The position numbers and the translations under genes were made by a program. The notes under the pieces were generated by a model, which saw only the letters and a program-made list of their open reading frames with translations, was not told the origin of the DNA and made no database searches. From positions 1 to 64,000 of the forward strand of contig CABIZD010000004.1 of assembly GCA_902363125.1 (NCBI GenBank): DNA of 64,000 nucleotides, given 5' to 3'. The DNA comes from Coriobacteriaceae bacterium (GTDB taxonomy: Bacteria; Actinomycetota; Coriobacteriia; Coriobacteriales; Coriobacteriaceae). This document shows, piece after piece, positions 7,052 to 14,048 of the stretch (positions are counted from its first letter, which is position 1; the number at the start of each line of letters is the position of its first letter).

Positions 7052-7894
7052 ATGATTGTGTTTTCCGATATGGATGGGACGCTGCTGACGAGCGATAAGC
7101 AGATGAGCGACGCCACTTGGGCAATGCTCGACGAGCTCGCACGTCGTGGCATCGAGTTTGTTCCCTGCACGGGGCGCCCGCTGTCGGGCATCTTTGAGCC
7201 CATTCTCGCCCATCCCGCCGTGCACTACGCGGTCTGCGCCAACGGCGCCAGCGTCTGGCGGCTCGACGAAGATACGCCCACCGACACCTCACGTGCTACG
7301 CGCATTTTGAGCCGACCGCTCGATTGCGGCATTGCCCACCGCATCCATCGCATTGCCGCCGGCCACGATGTGACCTTCGATATCTTCGCGGATGGACAGT
7401 GCTTCCTCCCCCGCTCGCTATACGGGCGCCTGGATGAGTTCTGCGGCGGTGACCCCCACATCGCGGCTTCACTCAAGCGCACACGAACGCCGATCGACAT
7501 GGATATCGACAGCAAGATCGACGAGGTCGAGACGCTCGAACGTATCGCCATGTACTGGCACAACCCGGCCGATCGCGACGCCATCGCGACGGCGCTCGAC
7601 ACGCTCGGAGGCATTGAGGTCACGCGTTCGTACGCCATGAATATCGAGGTCATGGGCGAGGGCGCCACCAAGGGGACGGCCCTCACGTGGCTATGCGAAT
7701 ACCTGGGCAAGCGTCTCGCCGACGCCTGGGCGTTCGGCGACAACATCAACGACATCCCCATGCTGCAGGCAGCGGGCCACGCCATGGCCATGATCAACGC
7801 CGAGTCCGAAGACCGCGAGGCCGCCGACGCCATCACCGAATACGACAACGACCACGACGGCGTCGCCCGCACCATCATGGCCGCCCTTGCCTAG
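7052..7894 (+). CDS. Cof-type HAD-IIB phosphatase
   Basis: This 280-residue hydrolase belongs to the Cof/HAD-IIB group, which dephosphorylates sugar phosphates, flavin nucleotides or pyridoxal phosphate. The nucleophile motif FSDMDGTLLTSDKQ is at residues 4-17, and motif IV (AFGDNINDIPML) is near 227-238; the C2-type cap lies between. The ribosome binding site is AAAGGA, with the ATG at 7052. It converges on a second HAD gene at 9573, and an IS110 element is inserted between them. The physiological substrate cannot be read from the sequence. Confidence 0.92.
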   Translation: MIVFSDMDGTLLTSDKQMSDATWAMLDELARRGIEFVPCTGRPLSGIFEPILAHPAVHYAVCANGASVWRLDEDTPTDTSRATRILSRPLDCGIAHRIHRIAAGHDVTFDIFADGQCFLPRSLYGRLDEFCGGDPHIAASLKRTRTPIDMDIDSKIDEVETLERIAMYWHNPADRDAIATALDTLGGIEVTRSYAMNIEVMGEGATKGTALTWLCEYLGKRLADAWAFGDNINDIPMLQAAGHAMAMINAESEDREAADAITEYDNDHDGVARTIMAALA

Positions 7895-7910
7895 TCATTG
7901 GTCAGTCATT

Positions 7911-7936
7911 GGGGACGTTCTTAAACGACTAGTCGT
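7911..7936 (+). repeat. REP-like repeat, left arm of an inverted pair
   Basis: This 26-bp sequence is repeated perfectly in inverted orientation at 10535-10560. It starts GGGGACGTTCTT and ends with the palindrome ACGACTAGTCGT. The pair brackets the IS element and the second HAD gene. It belongs to a family of short GGGACGTTC-type repeats in this window. Confidence 0.85.
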
Positions 7937-8114
7937 TGGGGACACTCTTCGCAAAAAGCTGCAAGGACTGTCCCCCACTGTCGGCAGAAACGATATGAGC
8001 AGGACATAAAAACATTGAGAGCCCCTGCTGCATGAAAGACCGCGGATTAGGCCGACAATGGTGAGTGTCTAATCCAACCGTGGCGGCCACGCCGCATTCA
8101 TGGAAGGGGCTCCC

Positions 8115-9227
8115 ATGCTCGATACTACCACCTTCATCGGCCTCGACGTCCACGCCCGCTCGATAAAGGCCGTCTCCCTCGACGTCATGACCGGGGAGGT
8201 ACGTGCCGCGACCTTCGGCTACGACGCCGGCGCCGTCGCGGAGTGGGTCCGTTCCGTGGACCCCAGGGCCAGGTGCGTGTACGAGTCCGGGGTCACGGGC
8301 TTCGACCTGCAGAAGAGGCTTTCCGGCCTGGGGGTCGACTGCGCGGTCGGCGCCGTCTCGAAGATGATCAAGCCCAGCGCGGACAGGCGCAGGAAGAACG
8401 ACCGCAACGACGCCGAGTTCCTCGCCCGCATGCTGTCGGTCGGCAACGTGGTCGAGGTGTGGGTCCCCGACGACGAGTGCGAGGCCGCCCGCGACCTGAC
8501 CAGGGCGCTCGAGGACGCGAGGGACGACCTCTCGCGCTCGAAGCAGCGGCTCTCCAAGTTCCTGCTCAGGCACGGGCTCGCCTTCGACGAGAGGACGCCC
8601 ACCGGCCGCAGGAAGGGCAACTGGACCCGGGCGCACTGGTCCTGGATCGAGTCGATAAGGTTCGCGGAGAGGGCCGACAACGACGTGCTCGCCTACTACG
8701 TCGACGCGGTCAGGCGGGCGGCGGAGGAGAAGGCGAGGCTCGAGGGGCTCGTCGAGGCCGAGGCCCGCAAGCCCAGGTGGAGGAAGAGGGTCGACTCCCT
8801 CCGCTGCCTCAAGGGCGTAGACACCGCGTCCGCCGCCGACCTCGTGTTCGAGGCCGGCGAGTTCTCGAGGTTCAGGAATGCCCGCTCGTTCGCGGCGTGG
8901 GTCGGCCTGACGCCCTCCGAGCACTCCAGCGGGGAGAGCGACCGCAGGGGCGCGATCACCAAGGCTGGCAACAAGCACCTGAGGAAGACGCTGGTCGAGG
9001 CCGCGTGGCACTACCTGACGTGCTCGGGGCGGCCGAAGGGCCTCGCCAAGGGCCAGGCCCCGGACCGGGGCGCCCGGAGGCATGCCGCCAAGGGCGTGCG
9101 GAGGCTGGTCGAGAGGCGGGAGGCGCTGCTCGCGCGCGGGGTCCACGGCAACAAGGCGAACGTGGCCACGGCGCGCGAGCTCGCCTGCTGGGTATGGGCG
9201 GTCGGCCTCATGGCCGAGGAGGCGTAG
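8115..9227 (+). CDS. IS110 family transposase (DEDD recombinase)
   Basis: This 370-residue recombinase moves the IS element. The RuvC-like DEDD N-terminal domain starts at FIGLDVHARS, continues through the RKNDRNDAEFLAR segment, and ends with the C-terminal Transposase_20 domain (LKGVDTASAADLVFEAGEF through GAITKAGNKHLRKTLVEAAW), which holds the catalytic serine region. The start at 8115 was preferred to 8100 because GGAAGGGG lies seven bases before it. The gene is intact, so the element may still be active. IS110 recombinases use an RNA copied from a non-coding end of the element to choose target and donor DNA. Confidence 0.93.
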   Translation: MLDTTTFIGLDVHARSIKAVSLDVMTGEVRAATFGYDAGAVAEWVRSVDPRARCVYESGVTGFDLQKRLSGLGVDCAVGAVSKMIKPSADRRRKNDRNDAEFLARMLSVGNVVEVWVPDDECEAARDLTRALEDARDDLSRSKQRLSKFLLRHGLAFDERTPTGRRKGNWTRAHWSWIESIRFAERADNDVLAYYVDAVRRAAEEKARLEGLVEAEARKPRWRKRVDSLRCLKGVDTASAADLVFEAGEFSRFRNARSFAAWVGLTPSEHSSGESDRRGAITKAGNKHLRKTLVEAAWHYLTCSGRPKGLAKGQAPDRGARRHAAKGVRRLVERREALLARGVHGNKANVATARELACWVWAVGLMAEEA

Positions 9228-9531
9228 GGGGGGCGGTCCCCCGCACATAAGCCGATCATCCCGGAAGCGGTTCGATCCGAAGCCGTTGAGGCGAACCTCA
9301 GGTCCCTTTTCTGCGAGCGCCCAGGGCGCCACACGCGTGCACAGACTGTCGGTTCGACGTAGAAGCCTCAGCCGTAGCAACGGATTGCCCAGCGAGAGAT
9401 CGCCGCGGGCGGATATTAAACTGCAAAGACGAGCGTCGGTAAGACACGCCGAGGTCGCCGCGGACGGGCTGATATAGGGAGAGGGCCTGACCCCATATCG
9501 TTGGGGCCAGGCCCGATTTTGCCTCTTGACA
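9228..9531 (+). ncRNA. Candidate bridge (seek) RNA region of the IS
   Basis: The 304 non-coding bases between the transposase stop and the right inverted repeat are where IS1111-group elements encode their guide RNA. The region contains several potential stems and ends with a strong hairpin, GGGCCTG-CCCC pairing with GGGG-CCAGGCCC (9483-9514), followed by GATTTT. The RNA ends and the target- and donor-binding loops cannot be fixed by eye. The call rests on element type, position and length. Confidence 0.5.
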
Positions 9532-9572
9532 ATGTCCTGCTCATATTAAAAGGAACGTCCCCATCTGCCGGA

Positions 9573-10367
9573 TTAAGCGAGACTCTCCAGCACGCGACGG
9601 AGCTCCTGCTGGACGGCGTGGTCGCGATTACAACCCACCACGCGATCGGCCACTGCCTTGAGCGCGGGGCGCGCGTTTTCCATCGCGCAGCCCGTACCGA
9701 CAAAGCGAATGATCTCGTAGTCGTTCATCGAGTCGCCAAACGCCATAACCTCGTCGCGTTCGACTCCATAGTGCTCCATGAGCTGTGCGATGCCCGAGGC
9801 CTTCGACACGCCGGGCTGCATGGCATCGATCCACGCGTTGCCCGAAGGCGCAAAAGTAAAGAGCTGACCGAGTTCGCGCTGTAGTACGTAAGCGCTGTCC
9901 ATAACGGCACCGTCATCGCAAAAGATACTCGCCTTGATGATATTTACGCTGGGATCGGGCAGCTCCCAAATGCGCTCGGCATTGGGAAGGTCCTTATCGA
10001 CCTCACGCACGAACTTGCACTCGTCATCGAGCAAGAAGGACTTGGTTCGGTCAAAAAGTGCAAGATGCAGATTGGGAAACGTCGCGACGGCCTGGGCGAG
10101 CCTTCGAATCGCCAGGTGCGAATACACCTCGCGGTCTACCATCTTACCGTCGGCGTAGACCTGGGCGCCGTTAGCGGCGACAAAGTCCATCTTGTCGCGA
10201 ACAGGTGCAAAGAACTCGCACAGGCGGTCGTAACGACGGCCTGACGATGCGGCGAAATGCACGCCATGCTCGTGTAGCGCCAGAATCAGTTCGTAGGTCT
10301 CGGGAGGCACCTGGCCGTTTTCGTCAAGCAACGTGCCGTCCATATCGGATGCAATCAGTTTAAACAT
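9573..10367 (-). CDS. Cof-type HAD-IIB phosphatase
   Basis: This 264-residue hydrolase is a second member of the Cof group and converges on the one at 7052. The nucleophile motif is ASDMDGTLLDENGQ (residues 7-20) and motif IV is AFGDSMNDYEII near residue 210. It is diverged from its neighbour rather than a recent duplicate. Its stop codon abuts a REP-like half-site at the IS edge. Its leader can fold into a 62-nt hairpin that contains the Shine-Dalgarno (see 10373-10434), which suggests translational control. The substrate is unknown. Confidence 0.93.
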   Translation of the reverse strand: MFKLIASDMDGTLLDENGQVPPETYELILALHEHGVHFAASSGRRYDRLCEFFAPVRDKMDFVAANGAQVYADGKMVDREVYSHLAIRRLAQAVATFPNLHLALFDRTKSFLLDDECKFVREVDKDLPNAERIWELPDPSVNIIKASIFCDDGAVMDSAYVLQRELGQLFTFAPSGNAWIDAMQPGVSKASGIAQLMEHYGVERDEVMAFGDSMNDYEIIRFVGTGCAMENARPALKAVADRVVGCNRDHAVQQELRRVLESLA

Positions 10368-10372
10368 AGAAA

Positions 10373-10434
10373 AGCTCCCTTCGGGCTTGATGGAATCGGA
10401 CGTATATCCAATTCCAACGTACCCAAAGGGAGCT
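10373..10434 (-). ncRNA. Long leader hairpin hiding the SD of a HAD gene
   Basis: Read on the minus strand, AGCTCCCTTTGGG (10434-10422) pairs with CCCGAAGGGAGCT (10385-10373), 13 pairs with one G-U. After a 6x6 internal loop, GGAATTGGA (10415-10407) pairs with TCCGATTCC (10400-10392) around a 6-nt loop. The 3' strand of the outer stem contains AAGGGAG, the ribosome binding site seven bases before the ATG at 10367. A TTTT run follows. It could act as an RNA switch, an RNA thermometer or a terminator. Confidence 0.65.
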
Positions 10435-10534
10435 CAAATAAGACTCTGCGGGCGTAAACGTTACAAGGACCTAGCAAATAGCTCACACATGCCAGAGGTC
10501 TCACGGTCGCGGCGTCAGGTGACACGCCACCCCG

Positions 10535-10560
10535 ACGACTAGTCGTTTAAGAACGTCCCC
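10535..10560 (-). repeat. REP-like repeat, right arm of an inverted pair
   Basis: This is the exact inverse of 7911-7936. It lies a few bases downstream of the adenine deaminase stop (10566) and contains the ACGACTAGTCGT palindrome. It may act as a 3' end stabiliser or be a relic of a mobile repeat. Confidence 0.85.
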
Positions 10561-10565
10561 GATGA

Positions 10566-12386
10566 CTAGTCGGCGTAGGTGAAGGTCGTGACGTCGAACA
10601 TGCCCTCGGGGCGGATGCGGAGCGTCGGGATCACCGGCAGGGGCAGGAAAATGATGCCCATGATGGGGTCGAGCGGCGGCTCGATGCCCATGGCACGCGC
10701 CTTGACCATAAAGTCGTCGTGCTGCGCGGCGACATCCTCGGCCGTGCCCTCGCTCATCAGGCCACCGAGCGCCAGCGGAATGCGCGCCACGACCTCGCCG
10801 TTGCGCACCAGCACGTGACCGCCCTGGCCCACGGCATCAACGGCGGCCATCATATCGGCGGCGTTGTCGCCCACGACGCACACGTTGTGCGAGTCGTGTC
10901 CGATCGTCGAGGCGATGGCACCACCCGTGATGGTAAAGCCGCGCACCCAGCCGCGGCCGATATGCTTGCCAACGAGTCCCAGGCCAGCGGGGCCGTCACC
11001 GTCGGCGCCCTCGGCCTGCAGCGACACGCCGCGGCCGTGACGCTCGATCAGCATAATACGGCGCAGGCCCTCGGCGCTCTCGGGACGAACCATGCCCGTG
11101 ATGGCCTTGCCCGGCACCACGTCAATCACGGCCTCGCCCGGCTTAAAGGCATAGTCGAATACGTCGAGCGAAAGCTTCGGCAGCTTAACGGAGGCGCGCA
11201 GCTCATCGGCAAGGGCCGCAACCTCGGCCATCTCGGGTGCGATCTCGCCCACAAAGGTGCCGTCCTGCGCCACCAGAGCACCAGCGGCATACACGCGATG
11301 CGGAGCCGTGACAAACGTCAGGTCGTTGAGCACCAGCAGGTCGGCACGCTTGCCCGGGGCGATGGCGCCACGCAGCTCGTGCGGGTCGCGGCAACCGTGG
11401 TCCAGGCCAAACGCCTCGGCCGTGGACAGGGACGCCATAGAGATGGCAACCACGGGGTCAATACCGGCCTCGATAGCCACGCGGCAGGCATTGTCGATCA
11501 TGCCGGTTGCAAGCGCATCGGAAGGAGCGGGGTCGTCAGTCGCAAAGCAGCAGCGGCGGGCGCGCGCGGGATTCTCCAGCAGCATCGGCGACAGGTTGGC
11601 CAGATCATGGCTGCACGTACCCTCGCGCAGCATCACGTACATGCCGCGAGACAGCTTGTCGAGCGCCTCCTCGGGAATCGTCGACTCGTGGTCGGCAATA
11701 ATACCCGCCGCGGCATAGGCATTGAGGTCCTTGCCGGCAACGAGCGGCGCATGGCCGTCGACCTGCTTGGACGGCGTCTGGTTGGCAGCATCGATGCGAG
11801 CGCAGGTCTCGGGATCGGCCATAAAGACGCCCGGCAGGTTCATCATCTCGCCCAGGCCAAAAACGTCGCCCGGATGCTCGGCAAAAAACGCCTGCATGTC
11901 AGCAGCGGTAATCACAGCGCCCGCTTGCTCATCGGGCAGCGCGGGCACGCATGAGGGCATCATGTACTTGATGGAAATGGGCGCGCGGCGACCGTCCTCG
12001 ATCATAAAGCGCAGGCCGTCGAGCCCCGCCACGTTGGCGATCTCGTGGCTGTCGGCAATGGCGGTGGTGGTACCGCGCGTCGCCGCCATGCGCGCATACT
12101 CGGCGGGACGGATGTTCGAGGACTCAATGTGCAGATGTCCGTCGATAAAGCCGGGGGCGAGATAGCGGCCCTGGCAGTCAATGACCTCGGCAGCCTCGTA
12201 GGTGCCGGCGGCATCGTCGCGACCATCGTAGAGCACGCCGACGATCACACCGTCCTTGACGGCAACGCTGCCGGGCGCCACACGCTGGCCATACACGTCG
12301 ACAATCTGCGCATTGATAAACAGCGTGTCGACGGGCACGCGGCCCTCGGCGGCCTCGATCACAGACCTCATGACCTCAACGGACAT
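10566..12386 (-). CDS. ade: Adenine deaminase
   Basis: This roughly 606-residue enzyme converts adenine to hypoxanthine and ammonia, feeding purine salvage or breakdown. It is an amidohydrolase with a binuclear metal site: GHLHIESS holds the HxH motif, and ADSHEIANV and ATDDPAPSD hold other metal ligands. The C-terminal half is the Adenine_deam_C domain. The frame is open upstream to 12563, but the start at 12386 has an AAGGAG site and matches normal family N-termini. A promoter and a terminator-like hairpin precede it, suggesting attenuation. It links functionally to the xanthine dehydrogenase locus later in the window. Confidence 0.96.
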   Translation of the reverse strand: MSVEVMRSVIEAAEGRVPVDTLFINAQIVDVYGQRVAPGSVAVKDGVIVGVLYDGRDDAAGTYEAAEVIDCQGRYLAPGFIDGHLHIESSNIRPAEYARMAATRGTTTAIADSHEIANVAGLDGLRFMIEDGRRAPISIKYMMPSCVPALPDEQAGAVITAADMQAFFAEHPGDVFGLGEMMNLPGVFMADPETCARIDAANQTPSKQVDGHAPLVAGKDLNAYAAAGIIADHESTIPEEALDKLSRGMYVMLREGTCSHDLANLSPMLLENPARARRCCFATDDPAPSDALATGMIDNACRVAIEAGIDPVVAISMASLSTAEAFGLDHGCRDPHELRGAIAPGKRADLLVLNDLTFVTAPHRVYAAGALVAQDGTFVGEIAPEMAEVAALADELRASVKLPKLSLDVFDYAFKPGEAVIDVVPGKAITGMVRPESAEGLRRIMLIERHGRGVSLQAEGADGDGPAGLGLVGKHIGRGWVRGFTITGGAIASTIGHDSHNVCVVGDNAADMMAAVDAVGQGGHVLVRNGEVVARIPLALGGLMSEGTAEDVAAQHDDFMVKARAMGIEPPLDPIMGIIFLPLPVIPTLRIRPEGMFDVTTFTYAD

Positions 12387-12406
12387 ACATACTCCTTTAA
12401 CCGTAG

Positions 12407-12442
12407 AAAAAAGCTGCGGAGCGGACAGACCTTCACCGCAGC
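12407..12442 (-). promoter_or_regulatory. Terminator-like attenuator in the ade leader
   Basis: On the minus strand GCTGCGG (12442-12436) pairs with CCGCAGC (12419-12413), followed at once by TTTTTT (12412-12407). It lies between the likely promoter and the ade start, only 20 bases before the start codon, so a full-length message must read through it. This is the layout of an attenuator or small riboswitch expression platform. No known aptamer was recognised. Confidence 0.6.
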
Positions 12443-12454
12443 AGACCAATAGCC

Positions 12455-12482
12455 ATTGTATGCCCAAACGATGGGTCAACAA
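12455..12482 (-). promoter_or_regulatory. Candidate sigma-70 promoter of ade
   Basis: TTGTTG (minus strand, 12482-12477), a 16-bp spacer and TACAAT (12460-12455). Transcription would start near 12448 and give a leader of about 60 bases that contains the terminator-like hairpin. Confidence 0.5.
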
Positions 12483-12549
12483 TACGCCTCTCCGCTTAAC
12501 GGCACACGCCACTTGGTGCAATGAGGAGAGGTTGCTTTGCACCAATGAC

Positions 12550-12596
12550 AAGGAGTGTCCCAAAGTGCCGGCACAAAAGGAACGTCCCTAAGTGCC
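12550..12596 (+). repeat. REP-like dimer, unoccupied IS target
   Basis: Two related half-sites sit head to tail: AAGGAGTGTCCCAAAGTGCC followed by GGCAC, then AAAGGAACGTCCCTAAGTGCC-type sequence. The same two halves flank the IS110 element at 7963-7986 and 9548-9571, so this is effectively an empty site. It lies upstream of the ade promoter. Confidence 0.75.
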
Positions 12597-12633
12597 AACA
12601 ACGGAAGCGCCGATGTTTTGGCAACGACAGCGA

Positions 12634-12732
12634 AAACCCGTCAGAGCGAGCAAGGTGCCTTGAAACGAGGCGGCATTGACCTTTTGGTCATGCCGCCGAA
12701 GTTGAAAGGCAGATTGCCGCTCTGGCGGGTTT
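12634..12732. other. Nested inverted-repeat element, RNA-like
   Basis: An outer stem of about 15 bp with one mismatch or bulge (AAACCCGTCAGAGCG at 12634-12648 with CGCTCTGGCGGGTTT at 12718-12732) encloses an inner stem GGCGGCATTGACC (12669-12681) with GGTCATGCCGCC (12686-12697) around a TTTT loop. GCCTT and AAGGC between them can also pair. The 450-bp gap between ade and tyrS otherwise has no gene. It may be a structured RNA or a folded mobile repeat; the strand is unknown. Confidence 0.5.
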
Positions 12733-12745
12733 GCAGCGTCGAGCC

Positions 12746-12773
12746 GTTACGCGGTTTGGTAAAACCGCGTAAC
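12746..12773. repeat. Perfect 12-bp hairpin repeat
   Basis: GTTACGCGGTTT and AAACCGCGTAAC form a perfect 12-bp inverted repeat with a 4-base loop. It lies between the nested element and the tyrS terminator. No U-run follows on either strand, so it is probably a repeat or RNA-stability hairpin rather than a terminator. Confidence 0.55.
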
Positions 12774-12774
12774 T

Positions 12775-12807
12775 AAAAGGCCGCAGTCGGGATTCCCGGC
12801 TGCGGCC
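12775..12807 (-). terminator. Rho-independent terminator of tyrS
   Basis: GGCCGCAG pairs with CTGCGGCC (12779-12807) and, on the minus strand, is followed by TTTT. It lies 30 bases past the tyrS stop codon. Confidence 0.85.
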
Positions 12808-12836
12808 TTATTGCACTTGTGAGGTCAACTCGCTCG

Positions 12837-14048
12837 TTAGACCAACTTAAAGCCCTTGCGCTTGCCTACGGAGAGGGTGTCGCCCAGCTTGAGGGCGCTG
12901 GGATCGATGTTATAGCTCTTGGGAGCCACCGCCTTGCCGTTGATCTTGACGCCGCCACCGTCAATGTCGCGACGGGCCTGGCCGGCGCTCGCCGAAAGGC
13001 CCAGGTCCCTAAGCAGGCCTGCGAGGTAGATCTGGCCCTCGTCGTTGACGGTCAGCTCAACGTGCTTCTCGGGGAAGTCGGCAAGCTGGCCCTCCTTGAA
13101 CACGCGGTCGAACTCGGCCTGAGCCTCGTCGCCGGCACCGACGCCGTGGTAGGTGTCGCACAGGTCGCGACCCAGAGCGCGCTTGAGCTCGTAGGGGTCG
13201 GCAGAACCATCGGCCAGGGCAGCGTCGATCTTGTCGACCTCGGCCGGGGTGAGCGAGCTCGCCAGGCGGTAGTACTTGCCGATCATCTCATCGGGGATGG
13301 ACATGGTCTTGCCGAACATATCCTTGGGAGCGTCGGTCAGGCCGATGTAGTTGCCGTATGACTTGGACATCTTGCGCACGCCGTCGGTACCCTCGAGCAG
13401 CGGCATGGTGAGCGCGATCTGCGGCTCCATGCCCATCTTCTCCATGAGCTCACGGCCAGCGAGCAGGTTGAAGAGCTGATCGGTGCCGCCCATCTCCACG
13501 TCGGCCTTGATCTGCACGGAGTCGAAAGCCTGCATCACGGGATACAGGAACTCATGCAGGGCGATCGGCGTCTGAGACTGGTAGCGCTTGGTAAAGTCGT
13601 CGCGCTCTAGAATGCGGGCGACGGTGAACTTGGAGCACACCTGCAGCAGGCCGGCCAGGTCCATCGAAAGGATCCAGTCGCCGTTGTGCACGATGGTGGT
13701 CTTCTCGGGATCCAGGATCTTCATGGCCTGGCTCACGTAGGTCTCGGCATTGGCCTCAATCTGCTCCTGCGAAAGCTGCGGACGGGTGGAATTCTTGCCC
13801 GAAGGGTCGCCGATCAGCGCGGTGCCGTTGCCGATGATGAGGGTGACGTTGTGGCCCAGGTCCTGGAACTGACGCATCTTGCGCAGGGGCACGGCGTGGC
13901 CCAGGTGCAGGTCGGGGCTGGTGGGATCGACGCCGAGCTTGATGTTGAGGGGCTCGCCCTTCTCAAGCTTCTTGCGAAGGTCGGCCTCGGGAACGATCTG
14001 CGCGGCGCCCGAGGTGATGATACGCATTTGCTCGTCAACAGACAGCAT
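12837..14048 (-). CDS. tyrS: Tyrosyl-tRNA synthetase
   Basis: This 403-residue class I synthetase charges tRNA-Tyr. It has the HIGH-type motif HLGHAVP (in DPTSPDLHLGHAVPLRKM, around residue 46) and the KMSKS loop (KMSKSYGNYIGL, near 228). The C-terminus carries an S4-like RNA-binding domain. The length fits the TyrZ-type long bacterial form. The gene has a GGAGGA ribosome binding site and a short GC hairpin in its leader (14069-14096). No T-box consensus was seen. It lies 97 bases after the U32 peptidase gene on the same strand. Confidence 0.97.
   Translation of the reverse strand: MLSVDEQMRIITSGAAQIVPEADLRKKLEKGEPLNIKLGVDPTSPDLHLGHAVPLRKMRQFQDLGHNVTLIIGNGTALIGDPSGKNSTRPQLSQEQIEANAETYVSQAMKILDPEKTTIVHNGDWILSMDLAGLLQVCSKFTVARILERDDFTKRYQSQTPIALHEFLYPVMQAFDSVQIKADVEMGGTDQLFNLLAGRELMEKMGMEPQIALTMPLLEGTDGVRKMSKSYGNYIGLTDAPKDMFGKTMSIPDEMIGKYYRLASSLTPAEVDKIDAALADGSADPYELKRALGRDLCDTYHGVGAGDEAQAEFDRVFKEGQLADFPEKHVELTVNDEGQIYLAGLLRDLGLSASAGQARRDIDGGGVKINGKAVAPKSYNIDPSALKLGDTLSVGKRKGFKLV

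Follow-up and report, generated by a model that had tools for sequence, protein, structure and literature searches.

The window, i.e. the whole stretch of 64,000 nt that was analysed, carries an insertion sequence of the IS1111 group, and comparison with the sequences of related genomes confirmed that it is inserted at one exact point of a repeat (7987|9548). The host is a gut Collinsella. Very probably, this is an element that enters a 49-bp repeat of Collinsella at one point and in one orientation, duplicates no target bases, is guided by RNA and was retargeted from ancestors homing on terminators. Alignments establish the exact ends, the empty sites, the site preference across loci and a conserved RNA with a target-complementary loop, and the element is apparently steered to the repeat by a guide RNA that it encodes itself. 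All features are listed in Table 1.

Table 1. Position and basis of the features of the element and its target (positions of the window)
Feature	Position	Strand	Basis
Left half of target repeat	7963..7987	+	Same in empty orthologous sites; consensus of 23 repeat sites
Whole IS1111-group element, 1560 bp	7988..9547	+	Six orthologous empty sites; other copies AGACGAT...CATATT; 7/3-bp extensions
Left terminal extension AAACGAT	7988..7994	+	Other 34 of 35 left ends are AGACGAT
Left subterminal inverted repeat, 13 bp	7995..8007	+	
DEDD transposase gene, 370 aa	8115..9227	+	PF01548, PF02371, NF033542, GLTPSEHSSG; alternative ATG at 8100
Downstream noncoding region including right end, 320 bp	9228..9547	+	
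Conserved structured RNA segment, predicted seekRNA/bridge RNA	9282..9450	+	Alignment A1; compensatory base pairs
Predicted target guide CCUUUUC, complementary to target top strand G|AAAAGG	9305..9311	+	Internal loop in folds; fixed-register match
Candidate second target guide ACUGUCGG, weak	9345..9352	+	Identical to left flank; 1/6 settings significant
Candidate donor guide AUAUUAAAC	9413..9421	+	Matches joined right-left ends; similar sequence in relatives
Hairpin then GATTTT, terminator-like	9483..9514	+	Sequence and fold
TTGACA, possible -35 box of a promoter at the circle junction	9526..9531	+	Kept in 14/14 aligned rows
Right subterminal inverted repeat, 13 bp	9532..9544	+	
Right terminal extension ATT	9545..9547	+	
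Right half of target repeat	9548..9571	+	Empty sites; 20 distinct repeat-type right flanks
Unoccupied repeat copy, other locus	12550..12598	+	38/49 bases identical to rejoined flanks

The decisive evidence for the insertion point is the orthologous, element-free locus in six related genomes (G042, G005, G018, G041, G029 and G001; the loci with an orthologous empty site are L065, L066, L067, L069, L070 and L086), which corresponds to the rejoined flanks of the window. Around the joint, four of the six empty sites are identical to these flanks and the other two differ by substitutions only, while extra bases are found in none of them. Insertion thus adds no bases, in line with the IS1111 group. 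Within the window copy, a run of three A allows the joint to be shifted by up to 3 nt. The sequence-only reading had proposed that the element splits a short repeated dimer into its halves, to be checked in related genomes with and without the element; both the repeat alignment and the empty sites, with the same junction in all six, bear this out. It had placed the joint at a GGCA/AAAGG centre, which omits one base (G or C). Its alignment of the flanks with the halves of the repeat at 12550 was reproduced, with 19/24 matching bases both for 7963-7986 vs 12550-12573 and for 9548-9571 vs 12575-12598. The empty copy that it pointed to nearby does exist, but this copy lies at a different, apparently intergenic locus and is weak proof by itself.

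The element occupies the intergenic gap between convergent genes for Cof-type HAD hydrolases. Immediately left of the insertion, at 7909-7962, further repeat-like pieces (GGGGACGTTCTT..., GGGGACACTCTT...) are seen, and the target thus seems to belong to a repeat cluster. The 14-mer AAAAGGAACGTCCC occurs twice in the window, both times without a mismatch, with 0.29 occurrences expected at up to two mismatches and at least two occurrences in 4/100 shuffles. In genome G019, the sequences of L074 and L138 suggest a copy at the same locus as in the window.

With regard to its class, the transposase scores 202.9 bits to NF033542 'IS110 family RNA-guided transposase' (cut-off 140) and contains both PF01548 and PF02371, the IS110/IS1111-type domain pair. 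According to PMC11187229, IS1111 transposases carry the motif GL-P----S(t)G, which GLTPSEHSSG fits, and IS1111 elements have extensions of 7 bp (left) and 3 bp (right) outside the inverted repeats. The same 7/3-bp extensions (AAACGAT and ATT) are found here around subterminal repeats (7995-8007/9532-9544) within the 11-13 bp of the group, and the noncoding stretch is, as in the group, longer downstream of the transposase gene than upstream (320 bp vs 127 bp). Across the joined ends, the candidate -35 box would be followed by a 17-nt spacer to AACGAT. The domains and inverted repeats agree with the IS1111-type identity that had been assigned from the sequence alone, and the 15-bp inverted repeats described at the same time turn out to be perfect (7993-8007 and 9532-9546). 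Their unequal distance to the element ends holds for these 15-bp repeats, but the 13-bp repeats give the canonical spacing of 7 left and 3 right.

The window copy starts with AAACG and the other 34 of 35 left ends with AGACG; either a point mutation or the capture of a base from the A-run of the target during strand exchange could account for this. Some copies in other strains (L062 at G001:C1:944241-948241, L063, and L064 in G012) align to the window element piecewise, with gaps or overlaps between the pieces, as if they had been interrupted, deleted or partly duplicated. An Rfam search of 7600-13000 gave sraL as its sole match, at 19.9 bits vs a gathering score of 39, and this was taken as chance. 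The phage search yielded no match, and the plasmid search returned ten records with short pieces alone (4-12% of the query, 60-80% identity).

The target repeat has the consensus AAGGAGTGTCCCCAACTGCCGGCAG|AAAAGGAACGTCCCCAAGTGCCGG, based on 23 distinct aligned sites from the available loci, and its 49 bp look like a unit of some 26 nt that is present in two direct copies. A pattern for the repeat centre (up to three mismatches) matches 22 of the 42 genomes of the genus, 2-25 times each, vs a single match in all 42 genomes for the reversed-pattern control. All 11 genomes with repeat-type right junctions fall among these 22 (1.6e-4), an overlap that is partly expected, as a junction implies at least one repeat and the genomes are related. 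The two window copies lie between genes. Within fetched flanks of about 1.5 kb, the repeat unit was found beside Y1_Tnp (RAYT) genes at 0/16 loci in six genomes, a search that would miss diverged units. The label 'REP-like' given earlier holds in so far as the repeat is short, repeated and intergenic in the window, and these 16 Y1 transposase loci give no support for a link to a REP-associated transposase.

Next to the exact 22-base right end of the element, the same base of the repeat is found in 26 of the 29 places listed in genomes of the genus. Two of the others (G008 and G011) belong to another element type with the flank ATAAAAGGCGCC. The remaining one, L254 in G007, adjoins AAAAGGGACGGGAG rather than the repeat and retains AAAAGG, which the guide would read, in a flank that is only similar (AAAAGGGACG). 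Here, only the last bases of the element are present, at a contig start (G007:C43:1-300), and the place may stem from insertion off target, from a rearrangement or from a different element. The exact-end junctions of the repeat type form 21 locus groups, or 22 by a stricter rule, with the window included; these groups were defined by shared words beyond the repeat, which merged some distinct loci via shared neighbouring repeats. On the left side, ten groups have their junction inside the repeat and one (L074) shows a degenerate left half. One element type has near-identical flanks, ...ATACTATACA|ATAAAAGGCGCC..., in records of Slackia, Olsenella and Collinsella (L034, L035, L036, L006, L012, L015, L099 and others), and because these flanks recur across genera, this type may ride within a larger mobile element.

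Relatives were collected across the order, where the right-end pattern (up to three mismatches) matches 69 of the 395 genomes. Apart from the loci already available, 85 listed places were fetched (42 of them shortened by contig ends), and seven further exact-end places of the genus were added, six of which adjoin the repeat and one (L254) does not. Without these seven, at least 109 distinct right ends were parsed. Two of them, on the minus strand of the window and in L123, have mutually similar, coding-like surroundings; they were regarded as probable chance hits within genes and excluded from later counts. The outer bases of the relatives are nearly invariant (AGACGAT in 34 of the 35 left ends found, and ATATT) and the inner core of the repeats varies.

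In relatives outside the repeat, an A-tract with a hairpin behind it is common in the right flank, as would be expected if an intrinsic terminator were directed towards the element and ended there with its U-tract. Among the matches listed, a hairpin beyond that of shuffles (p<=0.05) is present in 49/84 non-repeat right flanks vs 2/20 of the repeat type; flanks shorter than 36 nt were left out and loops were limited to 8 nt. The other 35 of the 84, including that of L141, are not significant. Considering only the listed flanks that start with an A-tract, 28/40 have a hairpin vs 25/200 control A-tract sites (Fisher 4e-13), the controls being sampled from 1320 sites in the same loci irrespective of intergenic position. 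Genome G030 contains one element seven times, each copy with a right flank of its own, which identifies the flanks as host DNA; all seven flanks start with AAAAAG and three pass the hairpin test. For L141, the test gives p=0.61 with a long loop that falls outside the 8-nt limit, and its flank AAAAAGCGTC...GACGCTTTTGG can be read as a terminator. L147 and L005, whose noncoding regions are closely alignable with that of the window element, give p=0.016 and p=0.082. Of the 84 listed non-repeat right flanks, 18 start with AG, which is also how the left end of the element usually begins. These bases may simply be native target sequence, or the dinucleotide may have been carried over, as with the AG repeat that is reported for ISPpu9.

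The noncoding regions of the relatives align into a conserved RNA, which, like the terminator-like sites of many relatives, lay beyond the reach of the sequence-only reading. Alignment A1 has 17 rows and leaves out, among others, the elements with a GCTTT core and L037; L097, L100, L142, L143 and L123, with non-homologous noncoding regions, are not part of the guide alignment. In the outer helix, five of the eight pairs show compensatory changes. The named structure has a covariation score of 0.245 vs 0.117 for shuffled alignments, with 0/500 shuffles as high, and its share of paired cells exceeds that of 500/500 shuffles. Two of the five covariation measures are ordinary, namely the number of pairs with compensatory changes (8/21; 46/500 shuffles as high) and the number of pair types (78/500). 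No slid version of the structure scores as high (0.138 for the nearest, +1). Conservation is poor in helices 2 and 4 (70.5% and 45.9% paired), and the folding energy of the region is not unusual (z -0.76, 0.01 and -0.60). RNAalifold recovers the outer helix and an inner helix (columns 33-36/75-78) unprompted, and the internal loop with CCUUUUC is located between these two.

This loop is complementary to target positions -1 to +6, G|AAAAGG. Scored in a fixed register, the guides match their own target (+1 to +6) at 0.906 vs 0.809 for swapped targets (16 clusters, p=1e-4). With 26 clusters, p=5e-5 is obtained, although this set includes the elements left out of A1 as well as L201 and L206, in which the guide region is apparently misaligned. 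The clusters are related elements and not fully independent, and this test, on which we rely, was designed after the free-register tests and the folds had been seen. The free-register tests give a Spearman coefficient of 0.48 (p=0.018) and p=0.0047, and an earlier test of guide against own target gave p=0.033 in one setting. In a free register, the window guide ranks fourth of 24 against the repeat, with three guides of other elements pairing better. The 10-nt match at 9305-9314 is not rare, being reached by 21 of 1500 random 40-mers from the same strand of the window. Individual cases include L108, with guide CGCUUUU and target AAAGCG, and the L186 cluster, with guide CUUUUUC and G|AAAAAG at 7/8 sites. 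For a second guide, against the bottom strand, six settings were run, one of which gave p=0.005 and the others 0.205-0.688. Of the two matches of a seekRNA, the top-strand one is thus supported and the bottom-strand one is not. That the top-strand match lies in the 5' arm agrees with the IS1111 seekRNAs, in which it is located 5' of the bottom-strand match, and AUAUUAAAC (9413-9421) could be a donor guide.

A transposase tree of 31 rows, three of them outgroup, was built from tblastn hits; its label 'ter' stands for any row that is simply not repeat-type. The two repeat-type rows pair (95/91) and are sister to L141 (100/99), which comes from a genome of another family (Ellagibacter). As this sister is not of the repeat type, the relationship is best read as a guide switch. 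The loops of L141 and the window differ at two positions (CUUUUUU and CCUUUUC). Based on this small difference and on the resemblance of the repeat centre AAAAGG to a terminator edge, targeting of terminators likely came first and that of the repeat later. In its wider form, we lean towards the reading that a clade of IS1111-group elements in the Coriobacteriales homes to the edge of the terminator U-tract by a short U-rich loop and that one Collinsella lineage switched to the genus-specific repeat, by a change from CUUUUUU to CCUUUUC.

Several other explanations were weighed against this one. Both halves of the repeat border the repeat-type copies, so they might be regarded as part of the element ends, with the insertion elsewhere. 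However, the empty sites at the same locus contain the whole repeat, the halves vary between copies whereas the ends do not, and repeat-bearing genomes such as G042, G018 and G010 have no exact right end among the matches listed. We assign a vanishingly small probability to this explanation, and flanks that are part of the element were ruled out by the orthologous empty sites. The target might also be chosen by protein-DNA or DNA-hairpin recognition, with the guide-like RNA match being incidental. The repeat and the terminators are both hairpin-prone, a 10-nt match is found as often as stated above for random 40-mers, and the z-scores for folding energy are near 0. Nevertheless, this is very unlikely, given that the guide loop follows its own target in a fixed register, the RNA stems covary, the off-repeat flank of L254 retains AAAAGG and published IS1111 elements are described as RNA-guided (PMC11187229).

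The terminator preference itself could be apparent only, if the relatives were plain intergenic insertions next to common A-tract hairpins, as 25/200 control sites do have one. This is very unlikely in view of the 28/40 flanks among the matches listed (Fisher 4e-13, with controls drawn irrespective of intergenic position) and of the G030 element, whose seven copies have seven flanks starting with AAAAAG, 3/7 with a significant hairpin. An inverse history, in which targeting of the repeat is ancestral and that of terminators arose later and more than once, draws on a tree rooted by distant, long-branch outgroups with open deep forks. It is very unlikely, since repeat-type rows make up only 2/28 of the ingroup and their sister is not repeat-type.

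Under the preferred reading of an RNA-guided element retargeted from terminators, the following course can be proposed. As in other IS1111 elements, the element would be excised as a circle, with the predicted junction ...CATATT|AAACGATATG. By analogy with the descriptions in PMC11187229 and PMC11208160, the joined ends would create a promoter, for which TTGACA is the candidate -35 box, and transposase and guide RNA might then be produced from the circle. The RNA loop CCUUUUC would pair with G|AAAAGG of the repeat, and the transposase would exchange the strands of circle and target at the paired site. An ancestral guide, CUUUUU(U/C), would have homed on the U-tract of intrinsic terminators, and few guide changes would have sufficed to reach the repeat.

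Targeting of REP sequences by IS1111 and IS110 elements is already established in the accounts of PMC1525189, PMC5896051 and PMC11208160. According to PMC11187229 and PMC1525189, ISPa11, which targets the REP of Pseudomonas aeruginosa, is likewise an IS1111-group element with a downstream noncoding RNA that inserts at one REP point without direct repeats. Its repeat and ends differ, many of the relatives studied here lie at terminators, and the comparison uses the description of ISPa11 alone. The host of ISPa11 belongs to a different phylum from Collinsella. IS1111 of Coxiella burnetii, named as the founding member in PMC11187229, has a different host and targets a palindromic repeat for which PMC5896051 uses the term REP. 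In Pseudomonas putida, every copy of ISPpu9 and ISPpu10 is reported at one REP position (PMC1525189), and ISPpu9 has a downstream small RNA, Ssr9 (PMC8450116). For these elements a 2-bp direct repeat is reported, whereas rejoining the flanks of the window element gives the empty site with nothing added. IS621 of the IS110 group also has an RNA internal loop that pairs with the target, and a REP target (PMC11208160). In that group, however, the RNA is mostly located in the left end and the predicted RNA of the window element in the right end, as is also predicted for IS1111 in PMC11208160. A literature search, covering mainly titles and abstract openings, gave among the matches listed no account of a terminator target in this family, nor of this element or the IS110 family in Collinsella.

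Judged against this literature, the window element extends a known behaviour to a new host and a new target. In the wider set there are dozens of guide-target pairs from nature, and the register of the guide is apparent from their sequences. If the natural retargeting is true, the guide, the old target class and the new target are all legible in genomes. The edges of terminator U-tracts would then be a landing site that is broadly present and probably harmless. The wider set also suggests that terminators can serve RNA-guided IS elements as a general safe site, from which few base changes lead to a repeat, which bears on the evolution of guide specificity and on the choice of landing sites for programmable recombinases.
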